Assembly (NCBI RefSeq): GCF_900115715.1
Contig: NZ_FOXM01000004.1
Span: 186,001 to 250,000, forward strand
DNA length: 64,000 nt
Source: Geopseudomonas sagittaria
GTDB lineage: Bacteria > Pseudomonadota > Gammaproteobacteria > Pseudomonadales > Pseudomonadaceae
Direction of reading: 5' to 3'
Numbering within the stretch: the stretch's first letter is position 1; each line of letters opens with the position of its first letter. Under the pieces are notes generated by a model that saw only the letters and a program-made list of their open reading frames with translations, was not told where the DNA came from and ran no database searches. This document shows positions 19,227-27,684 of the stretch, in pieces. Position numbers and translations under genes: made by a program.

Positions 19227-20249
19227 TCACTGGTCGTACTGCTCGGCCAATCGCGCCACCAGCGCTTCGGCCAACTCGCGCGGCGACGCGCTGAAACTGC
19301 TGTAGCCGCCCTCGCGCAGGCTGTCGGGCATGCTCGGGCAGGCGCAACTGTCGGCCTGCTGGGTCCAGATCAGCCCGCCCTGGCGACGCACGTAGGCGGC
19401 GGCGGCACTGCCGTCGCTGCCCATGCCGCTGAAGGCGATGACCCCGCAGCAGGACGGAAACTGTTGCGCCAGGTTGAGCATCATCTGATCGATCGAGGGA
19501 CTGTAGGGCTCCGGCCAGGGGCGCGCATGGATCTGCATGCGCCCGTCGTCGGCAAACGCCAGCTCCTGGCTGATCGGTGCCACCACCACCTCGCCGCAGC
19601 GCACCCAGTCGCCATCGCGGGCCAGGCTCACCGGCCACTGGCTGTGGCGCCCGACGGCCTGCGGCAAACGCTGTTCGAACGAGGCATCGATGTGCTGGGC
19701 ATAGACCAGGCCGAGCGGCAGACCACCGGGCAGCGCATCGAGAAACTCCTTGACCGCCTCCGGCCCTCCCAGCGAGGCGGCCAGCAGCCAGACCTCGCGG
19801 GCCGGCTGCCCGGCAACCAGCGCCGTGCTGCTCAGCGAATCCGGCAGATTGAGGCGTGCCAGACGCTGAGCCTGGTTGAGCAGTCCCTCCAGGCTCGGAC
19901 CGACCGCCCGGGCCGGATCACCGACCAGACGCTTGAGCTTGCCGACCAGGCGCCGCTCCCAGCGCGGGTAGTGCTCGGAGTTGCGCTCCGGGGCCTGTCC
20001 CTCGCCGAACAGCACCGGGGCCGTGGCCTGATCGAGCAGCAGGTCGATCAGCGGCGAGTCCTCCAGCTGGGCCAGGTCGACCAGCCACAGGTCCGGCGTG
20101 CAGGCGCGCAGCTGTTCGCCATCCAGGCGCTGCGGGTCACTGTTGAGCAGCACCTGATAGCCGTTGGCGAGCAGGGTCTGCTGCAGCACATGGCGCTGCA
20201 GCGAGGTATCGGCGATGACCGCAACGCGGCCGCTGCTGCGCTCAGTCAT
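19227..20249 (-). CDS. chpB: CheB-type methylesterase ChpB
   Basis: A 340-aa protein-glutamate methylesterase that removes methyl groups from the PilJ receptor. The N-terminal ~115 residues form a weak receiver-like domain that keeps an Asp (LWLVDLAQ, Asp58) but lacks the usual double-Asp pocket. The C-terminal catalytic domain has Ser159 (LAASLGGPEAV), His186 (YAQHIDASF) and Asp279 (FSGMGSDGS). It starts 8 bp inside the end of chpA. The first in-frame start at 20342 lies within chpA and was rejected in favour of MTERSSGRVAVI. Confidence 0.92.
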   Translation of the reverse strand: MTERSSGRVAVIADTSLQRHVLQQTLLANGYQVLLNSDPQRLDGEQLRACTPDLWLVDLAQLEDSPLIDLLLDQATAPVLFGEGQAPERNSEHYPRWERRLVGKLKRLVGDPARAVGPSLEGLLNQAQRLARLNLPDSLSSTALVAGQPAREVWLLAASLGGPEAVKEFLDALPGGLPLGLVYAQHIDASFEQRLPQAVGRHSQWPVSLARDGDWVRCGEVVVAPISQELAFADDGRMQIHARPWPEPYSPSIDQMMLNLAQQFPSCCGVIAFSGMGSDGSAAAAYVRRQGGLIWTQQADSCACPSMPDSLREGGYSSFSASPRELAEALVARLAEQYDQ

Positions 20250-23200
20250 GGCGCTGTACCAGTTGCTGGTGGATGTGCTCCAGCAGCAACGCTTCCTGAT
20301 AGGGCTTGCCGAGGTACTGGTTGACGCCGATGGCCAGCGCACGCTCGCGGTGCTTCTCGCCGGTTCGCGAAGTGATCATGATGATCGGCAGATCCTTGAG
20401 CCGCTCGTCGTGGCGCACCAGGGTGGCCACCTCGAAACCGTCCATGCGCGGCATCTCGATGTCCAGCAGCATCACGTCCGGCAGCACCTCCTGCAGCTGG
20501 GTGATGGCGTCCAGTCCGTCCTTGGCGGTCACCACGTCCATGCCGTTGCGCTCCAGCAGACGCGTGGTCACCTTGCGCACGGTGACCGAATCGTCGACCA
20601 CCATGACCAGCGGCGGGCGCTGCTTGTCGACGTTCTCGGCCCCCGCGTGGGCCGTGCCGGCATGTCGCGGCAGCTGCTGGGCCTGGCGCGCACGCAGGGT
20701 CGCCAGCAGGTCGAGAATCACCACCACCCGGCCATCGCCGAGGATGGTCGCGCCGGAAATGCCATGCACCGCGGCGAACTGCGCGCCGAGGCTCTTCACC
20801 ACGATCTCGCGCGAGCCGGCCAGGCTGTCCACCTGCACAGCCGTGGCGTATTCGGCGGAGCGCACCAGCACCACCGGCAGCGGCAGGCTCTGTCCGGCCA
20901 GCTTGGGCTGCTGGCCATTGTTCAGCAGCTCGCCGAGGTACTTCAGCTCGTACTGCTGGCCGGCGTATTCAAAGCGCGGCGCGTTGGGCCGGTAGTAGCT
21001 CTCCAGCTCGAACGGCGAGATGCGCACGATACCTTCGACGGTGTTCAGCGGGATGGCGTAGAGGTCATCGCCGGAGTGCACCATCAGCGCACGGTTGACC
21101 GATACGGTGAACGGCAGACGCACCAGGAAGCGCGTTCCCTGGCCACTGACCGAATCGATGCTGACCGTGCCGCCCAGCTGCTTGACTCCGGAGGCCACCA
21201 CGTCCATGCCGACGCCACGCCCGGAGATCTGCGTGACCTGGGCGGCCGTGGAGAAGCCGGCCTCGAGGATGAACTGCAGCACCTCGTAGTCGGAAAGCTC
21301 GGCATCGGCGGCCATCAGGCCGCGCTCGACGGCCTTTCTGCGCACCGCAGCGATGTTCACCCCGCCGCCGTCGTCGGCCAGGGTCAGCAGGATGTCGCCA
21401 CCCTCGCGGCTCAGGCTCAGGCGGATGGTGCCGAGATCCGGCTTGCCGGCGGCACGCCGTGCCTCGATTGCCTCGATGCCGTGGTCGACGGCATTGCGCA
21501 GCATGTGCTCCAGCGGCGCCACCATGCCTTCCAGCACGCTGCGGTCCATCTCGCCTTCGGCGTTCTGCACCACCAGCTCGACCTGCTTGCCCAGCTCGCC
21601 GGCGACCTGGCGCACGATGCGGCGCAGGCGCGGCACCAGACGGTCGAACGGCACCATGCGGGTGCGCATCAGGCCTTCCTGCAGCTCGGTGTTGACCCGC
21701 GCCTGCTGCAGCAGCAGGGTTTCCGCATCGCGGTTGCGCGCGGTCAGGGTTTCCTTGAGGTCGAGCAGGTCGGAGGCCGACTCGAACAGTGCGCGCGACA
21801 GCTGCTGCAACTGCGAATAACGGTCCATTTCCAGCAGGTCGAAGTCTTCGTAGCCGGCCCGCTCGCTCACCGACTGGTAGCGCGAGAGGATCTGCGCCTG
21901 GGTCTCGATATCCAGACGGCGCAGCTGATCGCGCACCCGCTCGATGGTGGCCTCCATCTCGCCGAGGGTGAAGGCGGTGTCGTTGACCTGCTGTTCGATG
22001 CGGCCGCGGAAGATCGAGGTCTCACCGGCGAGGTTGACCAGCGCCTCGAGCAGCTCGGCGGGCACCTTGACCAGCTCCTGCGGGGCACGCTGCGCAGCTG
22101 CCTCGGCGGCCATCTGCTGGGCACGCAGGACAAACGGCAATACTTTGTGGGGCGCCACGGCCGAGAGCGGCAGGATGCGCTGCACCAGCCGTTCGACCTG
22201 CACCTGCGGAGTCGACGCCTGGCTGACCGCGACTGCAGCGGCTGGCACCACTGCCGCCGGCAAGAACCCGCGCAGTTGCTCGACGCCCGCCATCAGCCCT
22301 TGGTAACCGGCCTGCAGAGCAGGCAGCAGGCCATTCAGCCCGCTATCGTCGTCGCCAGCCTCGGCCAGACACTCTTCCAGGCGCTGGCTCAACTCCACCA
22401 GCGGTTGCTGGCGAGCCAGCTGGGCTCCGCCCTTGAGAGTGTTCAGCAGGCCGCGCAACTCATCCAGCGGGACTGCAGCAGTGCTTTGCCAACGCCCCAG
22501 CGCCCCGTCCAGGGCCTCCAGCTGATCGCCAGCCTCGTCGAGGAACAGCGACAGCACTTCGCTGTCGCTGGGCTCCGGGGTGACGTAGCCGACCCGATGG
22601 TCCGCCTCGGCCGTCGGCACCGGCGCCTCGGCGATGAAAGTCGACTCGCCTTCTGCCGCCGGCTCGACCGCTGCGGTGGGCTCGTTGCTGGCCGCGAAGG
22701 CCTCGGCCTGGCGGGCATCATTGCCGAGCTGCGCCTGCTGGCGGAAACGGCGGATCGCCGCGACCTGCTGGCCACCGTCAGGCAGCGGGTCGCCGCTGCG
22801 CAGGGCCTCCAGCATCAGGGCCAGGCGGTCGTGGCAGTCGTGCAGCAGGCCAAACAGCGCGCCTTCCGCCTGCAGGCGGCCGTCGCCGAGACCTTCGTAG
22901 AGATATTCCAGTTCATGGGCCAGATCGCCGATTTCGCCGATCTCGGCCATCCGCGCGCCGCCCTTGAGGGTATGCAGATCACGCTGAAGGGCATCCAGGT
23001 CCGGTCCCTTGGCACCGGCATCCAGCCAGCGCTGCAGAGCCTCGCTCGCCGAGTCGAGGATATCGAAACCTTCCTCGAGGAAGATTTCCACCAGCTCGGG
23101 GTCACGCTCGACCACCACGCTGTCCGTCATGACCGACTGCGACGCAGATCCCAGCGACTGCGGACTGACCTGGGTGGAGAACGCCGCGGTAGCGGGTGCC

Positions 23201-26200
23201 TGCGCCGGCTCCGCAGGCGCATCGAGCAGCAACTCCGGCCACTCGGCCTGGGTGGCAGCTTCGGCTTCGGCAGCAGCGCGTGCCTGGGCAGCGGCTTCGG
23301 CTTTGGCTTCGGCTTCGGCTTCGGCTTCGGCTTCCGCGGCAGCTTGCGCCTGGGCAGCAGCCTCGGCTTCGGCGGCGGCACGCGCCTGGGCAGCGGCCTC
23401 GGCTTCCGCGGCAGCACGCGCCTGGGCAGCGGCCTCGGCTTCCGCGGCAGCACGCGCCTGGGCAGCGGCCTCGGCTTCCGCGGCAGCGCGTGCCTGGGCA
23501 GCGGCTTCGGCTTCGGCAGCAGCGCGTGCCTGGGCAGCGGCCTCGGCTTCCGCAGCAGCGCGTGCCTGGGCAGCGGCTTCGGCTTCCGCGGCGGCACGCG
23601 CCTGGGCTTCGGCGGCCAGCGCCGACGGCGCCAGCGCATTACCTTGACGCAACTCGCGCATCTGGCCGAGCAGTGCGCCGGCAGCGGTCAGCGGCAGCCT
23701 CTGCTGCAACTCCTCCACCTGACGAGCCAGCAGATCGTGCCCTGCGTGCAGCAGGTGTACTGCGCCGCTCGCCAAGTCGAAGCGACCATCGGTCAGGCCT
23801 TCGTAGATCGACTCCAGCTCATGGGCCAGATCACCGATGGCCCGCACGCCAGCCATCCGGGCACCGCCCTTGAGGGTGTGCAGGTCGCGCTGCAGCGCGG
23901 CCAGCGCCGAGCGTGCCTGCGGCTCGGCCAGCCAGCGTTCGAGGGCTTCGCCGGCGCTGTCGAGAATGTCGCCGGCCTCTTCGAGGAAGATCTCGACCAT
24001 CTCTTCATCGAGGTCTTCCTCGTCGACCGCCGGCAGCTCATGCGCCACGACCTGCACGACCGGTGCAGGCTCGCCGCCCCGGGTAAGTTCACTAGGGCGA
24101 GGAAGCTGCGACTCGCGCTCGAACTCAAGTTCGGGTTCGGGTTCGGCTCGAGGCTCGGCTCGAGAGTCCGCGAGCAACGGCCGTGCGGCTTCGGCTTGCG
24201 CCGCAGCCGCGGCCGCGGCATTGCTCAGCAGCAGCTCGAGGGCCTGCACGCGCTCCGGCTGCGGGCTGACTTCGAGACCGGCGGCCACCTGATCCATCAT
24301 GCCGATCAGCGCTTCATGGGCAGCCTCGGCTTCGCGGAAGAAGGCCTCGTCCACGGCCAGACGAGACTCGCCCACCGCGTTGTAGGTAGTCAGCAGCGCA
24401 GCACAGAGCAGATCGACCTGCGGCAGATCGGCCTGCAGCGCGCCGTGGGCCAGGGTAGCCAGTTCGTCGCGCAGGGCATCCAGCTCGACGTGCTCGGCCG
24501 GATGCTGGCGCCAGCGAGCCAGCAGGTCGTCGGCGTCCAGCAGAATGTCCATGCCGTCGGCGAGGAACTGGCTGATCAGCTTGGGATCGCGATTGTCGTG
24601 GTCGCGCCAACTGGCTTCGGCGGCATCCAGCTGCTCCTGATGCAGCTGCTGCACCCGCTCCAGCAGGGCCACGCTACCGGGCAGACTCGCCAGGGGCGCG
24701 CGACCGAGCTGCTGCAGACCATGCTGCAGCATCCTTTCGGCATCGCGCAGCAGTTCGGCAGCCGCCAGGCCGAAGGGAATCAGGTTGGTCTTGAATTCCT
24801 TGGCCAGCTTCTCCAGCGGCGCGGCCACTTCGGCGATCGGCAGGATGCCGGCCATGTAGGCACTGCCCTTGAGGGTATGCAGGGCACGCTGCAGTTCGTC
24901 GGTGACCGGTTGTGGCAACTCGCGATCGCAGGCGGCGAGGAAGTGCGCCAGCGCCTCGAGATGCGCTTCGGCTTCGGTGCAGAAGACTTCCAGCAGCTGC
25001 GGATCGAGCAACTCATCGTCGCTGCTGCCGGCATTGTCGGTCACGGTGGGCGCTGCGGCCGCCACGGGCGGCGTCATGCTCGCCCGGGGCAACGGCTGTC
25101 CCTTGGACAGCGAATGGGCCGCCGCCGCCAACTGGTCGACATCGTCGCGCTGGCGCTGGGCCTTGCCGGCATACTCCTCGACCAGCGCAGGCAGAAGGTC
25201 GACCACCTCGCGGATCAACTGCAGCAGCGGCGCATCGGCCTGGATGCTGCGGTCGATGACCCGGTTGAGCATGTTCTCGATCGACCAGGCCAGCTCGCCA
25301 ACGACCAGGGCACGGACCATGCGGCCGCTGCCCTTGAGGGTATGGAAGGCCCGACGCACTTCGGTGAGCGCCTCGCGGTTGCCGGTATCGGCGGACCACT
25401 GCGGCAGGTATTCGTTGAGGGTCTCGAGCACCTCGCCGGCTTCCTCGACGAACACTTCCTGCAGGTCTTCGTCTATCGGCTCCTCGTCGGCCGGCGGCGG
25501 CAACAGTTGCGGCGGTGCATCCTGGGCCGGCGGGTTGATCGCCGCCACCGGTGTGGCCATCACGTCGGCCAGGGTCAGCACGACTGCAGGCTCGACCTCG
25601 GCGGCGCTGGCAAGCGGCGCATCAATGACGCCGATCGGAGCGAGTTGCGACTCGGCCGGCAGCACGGTTTCGGCAACGGCCGGCTCCGGGACGACGTCAG
25701 GGCGCTCGGCGGACAGCGCCACGGCCTCGGGCTCGGCCTCGGCGGCCGACAGCGGCAGACCAACCGTGTTGCCCGCAACAGAGAGGGAGTGCGGGTCGCG
25801 CGATTCGGCGACTGCCGCTGACTGCGCTTCAGGAAGCTGGTCGACGGTGAGCGCAGTCGCCTGCGGCAGCACCTGCGCGATCGGCTCGGCTAGCGGCGTC
25901 AGGTCGACCGCCGCCGGACTCGCCGGCACGGCAGTGACCAGCACCTCGCTCGGCACATCGAGAATCGAGCGCGTCGGCTTCAGGCCGTAGCCCAGCGCGG
26001 TGAGGCTTTCCTCGGCGACATCGAGAATCAGATCGCCCTGACTGGCATGATCTTCGGCGATCCGCTCGAGGTAGTACTCGACGCTGGTGATCGCATCGGC
26101 CAGGGTGTCCAGACTTTGCCAGCTGGGCACCGTCTGGCGCACCAGCAGCTGCTCGCGGATGTAACGGCAGCAGGCATCCAGCAGCGCCGCCGCGCGGGGC

Positions 26201-27660
26201 AACGGGATGATGCCGAGACCACCGCGCACCTGGGTCAGCAGCTCGGGCACCCGAGCCAGATGCTCGTGGTTCCACTGCGAGCCGATGAACTCGATAATCG
26301 CGTCCTTGGACTGCTCGAGTCCGTTGCGCGCCTCCTTGATCACCAGCTGGTGGATCTGCCCCACGTCGGTGGTCGGCAACAGGTTGTCTTCCGCCCGCTC
26401 GCCCTCCGCCGGACCGACCATGCCGGACAGCGTCGCTTCGACGAACAGCAGGGCGCCGGCGACGTCCATCAGTACCGCATCATTGGGCTGGTGCTGCCCA
26501 CCGATCAGTAGGCCAATCACATCGAGCTGATCGGCAATCACCTTGCGCTGCGGACCGAAGCCGAGCACGCCCAAGGTATCGGCGATCTGCTTGAGCGGTG
26601 CCTGCAGGCCGACGAGGTCCGCCATCTGGTGGCGATCGCTGCGCACGAACAGGTCCAGGCTGTCCTTGACCCGCACCAGCTCCTCGCACAGGGCGCCGAC
26701 CACCGAGCGCATCGCGTCACGGTCGGGCCCCGCCATGCGGGCCCGCTCCTCGTCCACCACCTGGCTGTCAGGCATCGCCTCGGCCAGCTGGAAGCGCGCT
26801 TTCAGTTCACCAATGCGGCCGGCTTCGCTCGGGCTCTTGGCCACGTAGAACAGCAGGTTCTTCAACAACTGGTCGGGCGCCGGCTGGTTGAGGGCGGCAA
26901 TGCCCTCGTCGATCAGACGCTTGAGTTCGCGATCGACCTCGCGCAGCAGGGTGCGTACCGTGTTGCTAGCAGGGATGCTGTCACCGCTCAGCCCCTCGAC
27001 CACGCCAGCGGCCACCGACCACAGGGGGGCGATCGGCGCACCGGCACACAGGCTTTCCAGCTTGGCGAACACCTTGGCCAAGTAGGCCAGCTGGGTCGCC
27101 GGTTCTTGATTGCGCATGTAGCCGACCAGTGCCACCTGCAGCATCTGTCGCAGCTTGCGCAGCAGGGTCGGCAGACCGGCGCGCTCCAGACGCTCGAGCG
27201 CGGCCTGCGGCAGCGCCGCCGGCCGTGCCGACAGGTCCGGGGCAAACAGGCTGGTCTCCGACAGCAGGCTCTCGCTGCGCGCGGCGCGCAGGTCGTTGAG
27301 CAGCGGCAGCACCACCAGCGGCAGGTCGCGACGCGCGCTCTGGATCCGCTCGAGATAGACCGGCAACTGCAGGATCGCCTGCATCAGCACCGGCAAGCCG
27401 TCACCCTGGGTGCTGGCGCGCCCTTCGATCAACGCCTGGAGCAGCTGCTCCATTTCCTCGGCCAGCAGAGCGGCGCCATAGAACTCGACCATCTGCAGGG
27501 TACCCTGCACCTGATGGATGTAGTTCAGGCAAAAACGCAGACGCGTCAGGTCCTGCGGGCTTTCGACGAATGCCTCAAGGGCCTGGCGGGCCTGCTTCAG
27601 GGTCTCCGCGATTTCGCCCTTGACCCACTCCAGGGCGACATAGTCGTGCCGATCACCCAT
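20242..27660 (-). CDS. chpA: Chemosensory hybrid histidine kinase ChpA of the Pil-Chp system
   Basis: A giant 2472-aa CheA-like kinase controlling twitching motility and cAMP signalling. Phosphotransfer modules are visible at His49 (YIHQVQGT), Thr476 (TQVRGG), His773 (HTLKGSGRM), His928 (HTLKGSAYM), a degenerate module at 1068 (ATLAHG), His1261 and His1563 (HTLKGGARM), and 1740 where Asn replaces the acceptor (NTLKGGAQ). An Ala/Glu/Gln/Arg repeat linker spans about 1350-1475. The CheA ATPase (MLRNAVDHGIE, near 2055) follows, then a CheW domain and a receiver with Asp2400 (MLLDIEMPRMDG). Start 27660 (MGDRHDYVALEWVKGE) matches the PAO1 protein and its length as I remember them. Confidence 0.96.
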   Translation of the reverse strand: MGDRHDYVALEWVKGEIAETLKQARQALEAFVESPQDLTRLRFCLNYIHQVQGTLQMVEFYGAALLAEEMEQLLQALIEGRASTQGDGLPVLMQAILQLPVYLERIQSARRDLPLVVLPLLNDLRAARSESLLSETSLFAPDLSARPAALPQAALERLERAGLPTLLRKLRQMLQVALVGYMRNQEPATQLAYLAKVFAKLESLCAGAPIAPLWSVAAGVVEGLSGDSIPASNTVRTLLREVDRELKRLIDEGIAALNQPAPDQLLKNLLFYVAKSPSEAGRIGELKARFQLAEAMPDSQVVDEERARMAGPDRDAMRSVVGALCEELVRVKDSLDLFVRSDRHQMADLVGLQAPLKQIADTLGVLGFGPQRKVIADQLDVIGLLIGGQHQPNDAVLMDVAGALLFVEATLSGMVGPAEGERAEDNLLPTTDVGQIHQLVIKEARNGLEQSKDAIIEFIGSQWNHEHLARVPELLTQVRGGLGIIPLPRAAALLDACCRYIREQLLVRQTVPSWQSLDTLADAITSVEYYLERIAEDHASQGDLILDVAEESLTALGYGLKPTRSILDVPSEVLVTAVPASPAAVDLTPLAEPIAQVLPQATALTVDQLPEAQSAAVAESRDPHSLSVAGNTVGLPLSAAEAEPEAVALSAERPDVVPEPAVAETVLPAESQLAPIGVIDAPLASAAEVEPAVVLTLADVMATPVAAINPPAQDAPPQLLPPPADEEPIDEDLQEVFVEEAGEVLETLNEYLPQWSADTGNREALTEVRRAFHTLKGSGRMVRALVVGELAWSIENMLNRVIDRSIQADAPLLQLIREVVDLLPALVEEYAGKAQRQRDDVDQLAAAAHSLSKGQPLPRASMTPPVAAAAPTVTDNAGSSDDELLDPQLLEVFCTEAEAHLEALAHFLAACDRELPQPVTDELQRALHTLKGSAYMAGILPIAEVAAPLEKLAKEFKTNLIPFGLAAAELLRDAERMLQHGLQQLGRAPLASLPGSVALLERVQQLHQEQLDAAEASWRDHDNRDPKLISQFLADGMDILLDADDLLARWRQHPAEHVELDALRDELATLAHGALQADLPQVDLLCAALLTTYNAVGESRLAVDEAFFREAEAAHEALIGMMDQVAAGLEVSPQPERVQALELLLSNAAAAAAAQAEAARPLLADSRAEPRAEPEPELEFERESQLPRPSELTRGGEPAPVVQVVAHELPAVDEEDLDEEMVEIFLEEAGDILDSAGEALERWLAEPQARSALAALQRDLHTLKGGARMAGVRAIGDLAHELESIYEGLTDGRFDLASGAVHLLHAGHDLLARQVEELQQRLPLTAAGALLGQMRELRQGNALAPSALAAEAQARAAAEAEAAAQARAAAEAEAAAQARAAAEAEAAAQARAAAEAEAAAQARAAAEAEAAAQARAAAEAEAAAQARAAAEAEAAAQAQAAAEAEAEAEAEAKAEAAAQARAAAEAEAATQAEWPELLLDAPAEPAQAPATAAFSTQVSPQSLGSASQSVMTDSVVVERDPELVEIFLEEGFDILDSASEALQRWLDAGAKGPDLDALQRDLHTLKGGARMAEIGEIGDLAHELEYLYEGLGDGRLQAEGALFGLLHDCHDRLALMLEALRSGDPLPDGGQQVAAIRRFRQQAQLGNDARQAEAFAASNEPTAAVEPAAEGESTFIAEAPVPTAEADHRVGYVTPEPSDSEVLSLFLDEAGDQLEALDGALGRWQSTAAVPLDELRGLLNTLKGGAQLARQQPLVELSQRLEECLAEAGDDDSGLNGLLPALQAGYQGLMAGVEQLRGFLPAAVVPAAAVAVSQASTPQVQVERLVQRILPLSAVAPHKVLPFVLRAQQMAAEAAAQRAPQELVKVPAELLEALVNLAGETSIFRGRIEQQVNDTAFTLGEMEATIERVRDQLRRLDIETQAQILSRYQSVSERAGYEDFDLLEMDRYSQLQQLSRALFESASDLLDLKETLTARNRDAETLLLQQARVNTELQEGLMRTRMVPFDRLVPRLRRIVRQVAGELGKQVELVVQNAEGEMDRSVLEGMVAPLEHMLRNAVDHGIEAIEARRAAGKPDLGTIRLSLSREGGDILLTLADDGGGVNIAAVRRKAVERGLMAADAELSDYEVLQFILEAGFSTAAQVTQISGRGVGMDVVASGVKQLGGTVSIDSVSGQGTRFLVRLPFTVSVNRALMVHSGDDLYAIPLNTVEGIVRISPFELESYYRPNAPRFEYAGQQYELKYLGELLNNGQQPKLAGQSLPLPVVLVRSAEYATAVQVDSLAGSREIVVKSLGAQFAAVHGISGATILGDGRVVVILDLLATLRARQAQQLPRHAGTAHAGAENVDKQRPPLVMVVDDSVTVRKVTTRLLERNGMDVVTAKDGLDAITQLQEVLPDVMLLDIEMPRMDGFEVATLVRHDERLKDLPIIMITSRTGEKHRERALAIGVNQYLGKPYQEALLLEHIHQQLVQRHD
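23348..23610. repeat. 36-bp tandem repeats inside chpA
   Basis: The motif GCCTGGGCAGC recurs exactly every 36 bp at 23348, 23384, 23420, 23456, 23492, 23528 and 23564, and GCCTGGGCTTC at 23600. On the coding strand it encodes the 12-residue unit QARAAAEAEAAA about seven times. A further diverged copy with an EAEAEAEAKAEA stretch lies at 23267-23347. The unit predicts a long charged alpha-helix joining phosphotransfer modules. Confidence 0.93.
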
Positions 27661-27684
27661 AGCGACTCCAAACATTGATCATGG

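Follow-up and report, generated by a model that had tools for sequence, protein, structure and literature searches.

Introduction

ChpA of Pseudomonas aeruginosa, as far as the accessible text of the published work describes it, presents many Hpt-like domains followed by an ATPase, a CheW domain and a receiver, and is encoded in the pil-chp cluster (PMC5812489, PMC10782961). According to the accessible part of one of these reports, autophosphorylation of the protein takes place on Hpt4-6, the receiver domain obtains phosphate from Hpt5 and Hpt6, and PilG and PilH are supplied mainly by Hpt2 and Hpt3 (PMC5812489). A dimerisation domain of the CheA type has also been described in the excerpt available (PMC10782961), and the reason for the many phosphotransfer domains of ChpA is described, in another partial text, as poorly understood (PMC12632253). 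An 18-bp insertion in chpA is recorded for the P. aeruginosa strain PcyII-40, its place in the gene not being given in the available part of the report (PMC7344871). No repeat array is mentioned in the accessible parts of the literature on P. aeruginosa ChpA, and a literature search that covered partial texts found no report of repeat arrays, or of a repeat hotspot, in ChpA linkers.

The 36-bp tandem array described here, which lies in a chpA-like gene, can also be compared with repetitive segments of other proteins. The central helix of TolA in Gram-negative bacteria is, like the array, a long Ala-rich repetitive helix that bridges two modules, but it spans the periplasm and is Lys-rich. The best sequence match to the array in the PDB is the Gln-Ala repeat of human TCERG1 (E 5.3e-7), a transcription elongation regulator whose repeat length varies among people. 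Both are low-complexity tracts of xA dipeptides within a regulator, but the proteins are unrelated and the match is one of composition, without homology. Single alpha-helices (SAH, ER/K) resemble the array in the long continuous helix predicted between domains and in its use as a spacer; however, as the accessible part of the source describes them, they contain much Glu, Arg and Lys and form numerous salt bridges, whereas the array is mostly Ala (PMC5347031).

The comparison presented below leads us to propose that the array is an in-frame 36-bp repeat that probably forms a length-tolerant spacer in the ChpA phosphorelay, within linkers that are hotspots for repeats.

Results and Discussion

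The chpA-like gene and its domains

The window, as the whole stretch of 64 kb of DNA analysed is called here, contains on its minus strand a chpA-like gene (20242..27675) encoding a multi-Hpt CheA-type kinase of 2,477 aa. Pfam recognised six Hpt, HATPase_c, CheW and Response_reg domains in this ORF, and domains of the CheW, PilJ plus MCPsignal, CheR and CheB_methylest types in the adjacent ORFs, which corresponds to a Pil-Chp cluster. Several Hpt domains ahead of an ATPase, a CheW domain and a receiver, together with neighbours of the pilI, pilJ, pilK and chpB types, are sequence features of the ChpA (Tfp) class, which controls twitching through PilG and PilH; the P. aeruginosa protein was compared through published descriptions, available in part. 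An earlier note on this DNA, made from its letters alone, had rightly named the gene ChpA.

A home-built Hpt profile recognised seven Hpt-like domains in this protein (numbered from the ATG, all on the minus strand). These are D1 (aa 21-112), D2 (aa 729-835, His778), D3 (aa 885-990, His933), D4 (aa 1025-1131, with a box that lacks the His by eye), D5 (23701..24024, aa 1218-1325, His1266), D6 (22798..23109, aa 1523-1626, His1568) and D7 (22270..22575, aa 1701-1802), which is the nearest to the kinase and has Asn1745 in place of the His. The kinase ATPase, CheW and receiver domains follow (20272..21516, aa 2054-2468). The D4-D5 linker (24025..24282, 86 aa) has no large array in the window, and the D5-D6 linker (23110..23700, 197 aa) consists mostly of the array. 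This sits between two His-bearing Hpt domains, D5 and D6, and so does lie between phosphotransfer modules, as had been claimed. The six Hpt domains of P. aeruginosa would correspond to D1, D2, D3, D5, D6 and D7, so the array would occupy the Hpt4-Hpt5 linker.

The phosphosite residue of D7 varies within the genus (genomes are numbered with G and ChpA loci with L), being Asn in the window, Tyr in G005, Gln in G001 and G002, and His in G004, G006 and G007, and D7 is the least conserved of the compared domains, with 50-83% identity to the window (G003 apart). Antisense to chpA, an open frame of 1,885 aa (window 20164-25821, plus strand) is probably a by-product of the G+C-rich codon usage.

The 36-bp array

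In the 64-kb window TRF detected the array at 23246..23607 (minus strand), with a period of 36 bp, 10.2 copies and a score of 444, while the next-best row outside it reached a score of 61. The tandem 36-bp repeat reported in the earlier note at 23267-23610 is real, and those limits were close. Seven perfect units, each reading exactly QARAAAEAEAAA (23353..23604, minus strand), were taken into the codon table and the codon-shuffle test, and they are followed by a degenerate array end (23251..23352, minus strand), which read by codon is composed of QAQAAAEAEAEAEAEAKAEAAA (23352-23287) and the last unit, QARAAAEAEAAT (23286-23251). The former contains a hexamer run, which is the sole exact (GAAGCC)5 of the window's genome, G000 (23305..23334, minus strand; C29:209305-209334). 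The array is read in the frame of the minus-strand ORF (27675-20242), of which it covers aa 1358-1475, and the 36-bp unit is a multiple of three and stays in frame, as in a coding VNTR. Regarding its composition, 80 of 124 residues are Ala, with 23 Glu, 8 Arg and 1 Lys.

When the array was searched against its own genome, a single weak match was obtained apart from chpA itself (72% identity, E 9.9e-4); it falls in an ORF that resembles HlyD by eye. Concerning structured RNA, no Rfam match at gathering scores was found between 18000 and 32000 of the window. An origin of the 36-bp unit from (GAAGCC)n was also considered and rejected, the hexamer likeness being 23/36 against a null mean of 22.9 based on codon usage (P 0.60); the amino-acid pattern does fit such a derivation, with 43 of 44 non-Ala residues on one parity.

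The same linker in relatives

The search covered 36 genomes, the window's own included, with the genus represented by eight species and one genome per species; the family of the window's species includes Pseudomonas- and Stutzerimonas-like relatives. The C-terminal part of ChpA was matched in all of them, although the best match in G024 was weak (E 8.7e-16). Within the genus, a Glu/Ala-rich array occupies the D5-D6 linker in seven of the eight species, and G003 has no array at this linker. Six of the seven arrays are (GAAGCC)n tracts, and the 36-bp type is present only in the window. Pure GAAGCC units at D5-D6 number 58 in G002 and 34 in G007, each assembled as a single contig, and 22 in G001, while the tracts of G004, G005 and G006 are broken by contig ends or an N gap. 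The D4-D5 linker holds large arrays in five of the eight species, with units of 12, 39, 40, 53 or 78 aa, and other ChpA linkers carry (EP)n or acidic repeats. In three same-genus genomes, domains D2-D6 keep 72-88% identity to the window, against 8-15% for the D4-D5 linker and 29-55% for the D5-D6 linker. The D5-D6-type linker measures 34-267 aa in the 32 proteins with both domains recognised. Since relatives build the spacer from different repeats, its length seems to change often.

An extra (EA)n tract was observed in the D1-D2 stretch of the G004 protein (L164, aa 574-604), so that a single chpA may contain as many as three arrays. Among other gammaproteobacterial homologues of ChpA, L103 (Dyella sp. 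S184, aa 1097-1251) and L099 (aa 1305-1368) possess long Ala-rich linkers made of repeat units of their own, which look like separate origins.

The earlier suggestion that copy number may vary was borne out for repeat length in close relatives. L031 (a Pseudomonas metagenome assembly) and L032 (Stutzerimonas kunmingensis 28M-8) share 98.9% identity over 15,411 bp with a single internal indel, of 84 bp or 14 hexamers, which falls in the D4-D5 tract and leaves 19 against 6 pure GAAGCC units, with the reserve that the tract length of L031 may be imperfect because this is a metagenome assembly. L033 and L078, which are 90.2% identical, present 11 and 8 units at the D5-D6 linker and four indels inside chpA, each of them a multiple of three and outside the mapped domains. 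These sequence comparisons support that array length varies among relatives.

The nearest relative of the window is G005, with 88.8-98.0% identity in 11 segments of 250 bp from the adjacent chp genes, against 74-88% in ChpA at about aa 1184-1767 and a second dip to 81-83% near aa 601-684. In G005, D5-D6 has a hexamer tract and D4-D5 a 12-aa array (EARAEAEARAAA), unlike the window, where D4-D5 has no large array; the type of array and its place thus shift between close relatives. The region from the D4-D5 linker to D7 (about 22251-24250) is far more diverged from G005 (L111) than the surrounding genes are, and the D5 protein of G007, G006 and G004 is closer to the window (87-88%) than that of G005 (84%), which may be a hint of recombination or fast evolution.

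This pattern indicates that the inter-domain linkers of ChpA repeatedly gain, lose and swap in-frame arrays while the domains stay conserved, probably through slippage or unequal exchange. The likely reason is that the phosphorelay can accommodate spacers of very different length.

Arrays across ChpA proteins

At least one array with a TRF score of at least 80 was found in 39 of 114 ChpA ORFs or fragments, a set in which split genes count twice (G004 as L114 and L164, G006 as L112 and L165), contig-end fragments are included, L093 crosses an N gap and is in a wrong frame there, L035 and L128 are likely one organism (equal ORF length and Hpt positions), and the named loci are the best 80 of at least 586 found and no random sample. 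Since these ORFs are related and partly double-counted, the counts describe the set and not independent events. Nearly all the arrays (50 of 52) lie outside the mapped Hpt domains and the kinase core, the remaining two being in the kinase core. Residues outside mapped domains make up 48.7% of the 114 ORFs, a share that includes the long D1-D2 stretch and may hide further phosphotransfer-like domains. Among the arrays with a score of at least 100 (31, from 25 of 100 ORFs), every period is divisible by three. No array with a score of at least 80 was detected in the other 75 of the 114 ORFs, among them the majority of the named Pseudomonas loci of fluorescens and putida type, in which the D5-D6-type linker is about 34-42 aa long when recognised.

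The exact (GAAGCC)5 motif is present in 11 of the 36 genomes, the window's own included, and in 10 of these 11 there is a tract in chpA. Outside chpA the motif occurs at three sites, of which G003 has two and G010 one. The site of G010 is in what resembles, by eye, the tail of RNase E, and G003 has GAAGCC tracts in two non-chpA ORFs (L168 and L169) and a chpA without a tract.

Variation among the units

The mean pairwise codon identity of the seven perfect units is 0.722, against a mean of 0.449 and a maximum of 0.583 when synonymous codons were shuffled within units (0 of 20,000 shuffles reached 0.722). Their nucleotide identity is 0.907 (90.7%), compared with a mean of 0.817 and a maximum of 0.892 derived from ChpA codon usage. 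Codon usage does not account for the likeness in codon choice among the units, and the array is amplified, though not pristine. All seven variable sites among these units are synonymous third codon positions, which makes their DNA less uniform than the protein and means that the array is not of the freshest kind. The earlier note had described the units as nearly identical even at third positions: the identity does exceed chance, but it is precisely the third positions that vary. Its view of a recent expansion has to be tempered, the pure hexamer tracts of the sister species looking fresher.

In the core units, 7 of 7 variants are synonymous against an expected fraction of 0.28-0.32 (P about 0.0001-0.0003), and in all ten units 11 of 17 are, against 0.28-0.31 (P about 0.002-0.004, assuming independent changes). 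As the core block was picked for identical amino acids, only the ten-unit figure carries weight, and lightly. This excess is a hint that the unit is constrained and does not drift freely, and purifying selection on the 36-bp unit is suggestive only. In the D4-D5 arrays of three sister species there was no clear excess, with 5 of 9 synonymous variants in G005, 18 of 61 in G007, where a misaligned fifth unit inflates the replacement count, and 10 of 24 in G001.

These data bear on a possible, though not favoured, alternative: that the linker is unconstrained G+C-rich filler, its repeats arising from mutation bias alone and its function being just to join domains. The large differences in length and type between close species would be expected of such filler, and so would the D4-D5 arrays of G005, G007 and G001. 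The synonymous excess in the window array speaks against it, even if it is post hoc for the core, as does the fact that (GAAGCC)5 is far commoner in chpA than elsewhere in the same genomes.

The same bias of the hexamer towards chpA, strong in 10 of 11 genomes, would suit another reading, in which copy-number changes are selected heritable variation that alters phosphotransfer and, in consequence, twitching. According to textbook geometry, each 12-aa unit would add about 1.8 nm of helix and turn the next domain by about 120 degrees. The strain-scale length change between L031 and L032 agrees with such tuning, and, provided that the numbering of P. aeruginosa applies here, the array would separate the kinase-proximal Hpt domains from the output ones. 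Nevertheless, species differ both in the type of unit and in the geometry predicted for it; moreover, the units are in frame, so that changes would be graded, with no on/off switch by frameshift as in a contingency locus. Tuning is unlikely on balance, and the effect of copy number on twitching put forward in the earlier note is a guess. The observation in that note is confirmed and its interpretation as a whole is partly supported.

A broader proposal, which we regard as speculative and rather improbable, is that the Hpt-Hpt linkers of ChpA are a dedicated site of evolvability, where slippage-prone, in-frame tracts would make the tether from kinase-proximal to output phosphotransfer domains longer or shorter and would provide heritable, graded and reversible variation in surface motility, and where some tracts would have been turned by point changes into slower-mutating, helix-coding 36-bp units like those of the window.

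Structure of the spacer

With a 26-sequence alignment, AlphaFold2 predicted one continuous helix at aa 1350-1472 (123 residues), followed by disorder before D6, with a block pLDDT of 86-98 at about aa 1355-1454; few sequences cover the array in this alignment (at most 5 of the 26 rows in 79 of the 118 array columns) and such models may over-call helices, so this helix is a prediction only. Considering a rise of 0.15 nm per residue, 123 residues would extend about 18 nm if the whole segment were helical. The Lifson-Roig estimate of helicity for the array has a mean of 0.60 and reaches 0.80 at the centre (0.46 with weaker propensities), compared with 0.25 for the 12-aa array of G005, 0.09 for the array of Dyella L103, 0.03 for (EA)58 and 0.00 for (EP)20. 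In L031, modelled by AlphaFold2 without an alignment (mean pLDDT 52.8), (EA)19 is drawn as a helix at modest confidence, most of the stretch having a block pLDDT of 63-78; this conflicts with the helix-coil estimate, in which (EA)n has low helicity.

Since the unit codes for an Ala-rich, helix-forming sequence, the spacer of the window is probably helical, alone or paired in the ChpA dimer, and a rigid helix in this species is plausible. A rigid helix is not the conserved property, given that the sister species have (EA)n and other ChpA linkers (EP)n or acidic repeats. The helix of about 120 residues that the earlier note expected is thus reproduced by the model, but a rigid helix does not appear to be shared by ChpA linkers in general. 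Nor is the linker a classical charged single alpha-helix: the QARAAAEAEAAA unit contains 8 Ala in 12 residues and one possible R-to-E(+4) pair per 12 residues, and lacks the dense E-K/E-R pairs at i to i+3/i+4 of that class.

Instead of a lone rod, the Ala-rich arrays of two ChpA chains might associate as a dimer stalk. CheA-type kinases dimerise, which is in line with this idea. Designed Ala-rich repeats, in the accessible part of the source, were helical but dimerised or oligomerised (PMC5347031), and this self-association, added to a unit without dense salt bridges, makes pairing in the ChpA dimer possible. On the other hand, the 12-residue period gives no regular heptad and the (EA)n tracts of the sister species should repel each other, which leaves the stalk doubtful.

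That short-read assembly created the array or its copy number is very improbable, even if the window's genome is a 44-contig draft in which the copy number could be wrong and the assemblies of relatives fail at hexamer tracts, because the longest exact repeat within the array is 74 bp, synonymous sites tell the units apart, 22001-25000 of the window contains no N, and the single-contig genomes G002 and G007 hold long tracts at D5-D6.

Implications for ChpA

The preferred reading remains that of a length-tolerant spacer, which would keep the kinase-proximal Hpt domains tethered some way from those upstream. A practical consequence concerns genome data. Hexamer tracts break assemblies (in G004, G006 and G021 a contig stops within the tract, and in G005 a gap of 10 N interrupts it), and draft assemblies may show chpA broken or mis-sized. 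A frameshift or pseudogene in the chpA of G005 was ruled out, the break being the 10-N gap in the hexamer tract.

Regarding the biology of the family, the natural variants in spacer length, some of them in nearly identical genomes, are a ready experiment on geometry in a multi-Hpt relay. If length proves to be without effect, these linkers would be a clean example of a tolerated low-complexity linker.
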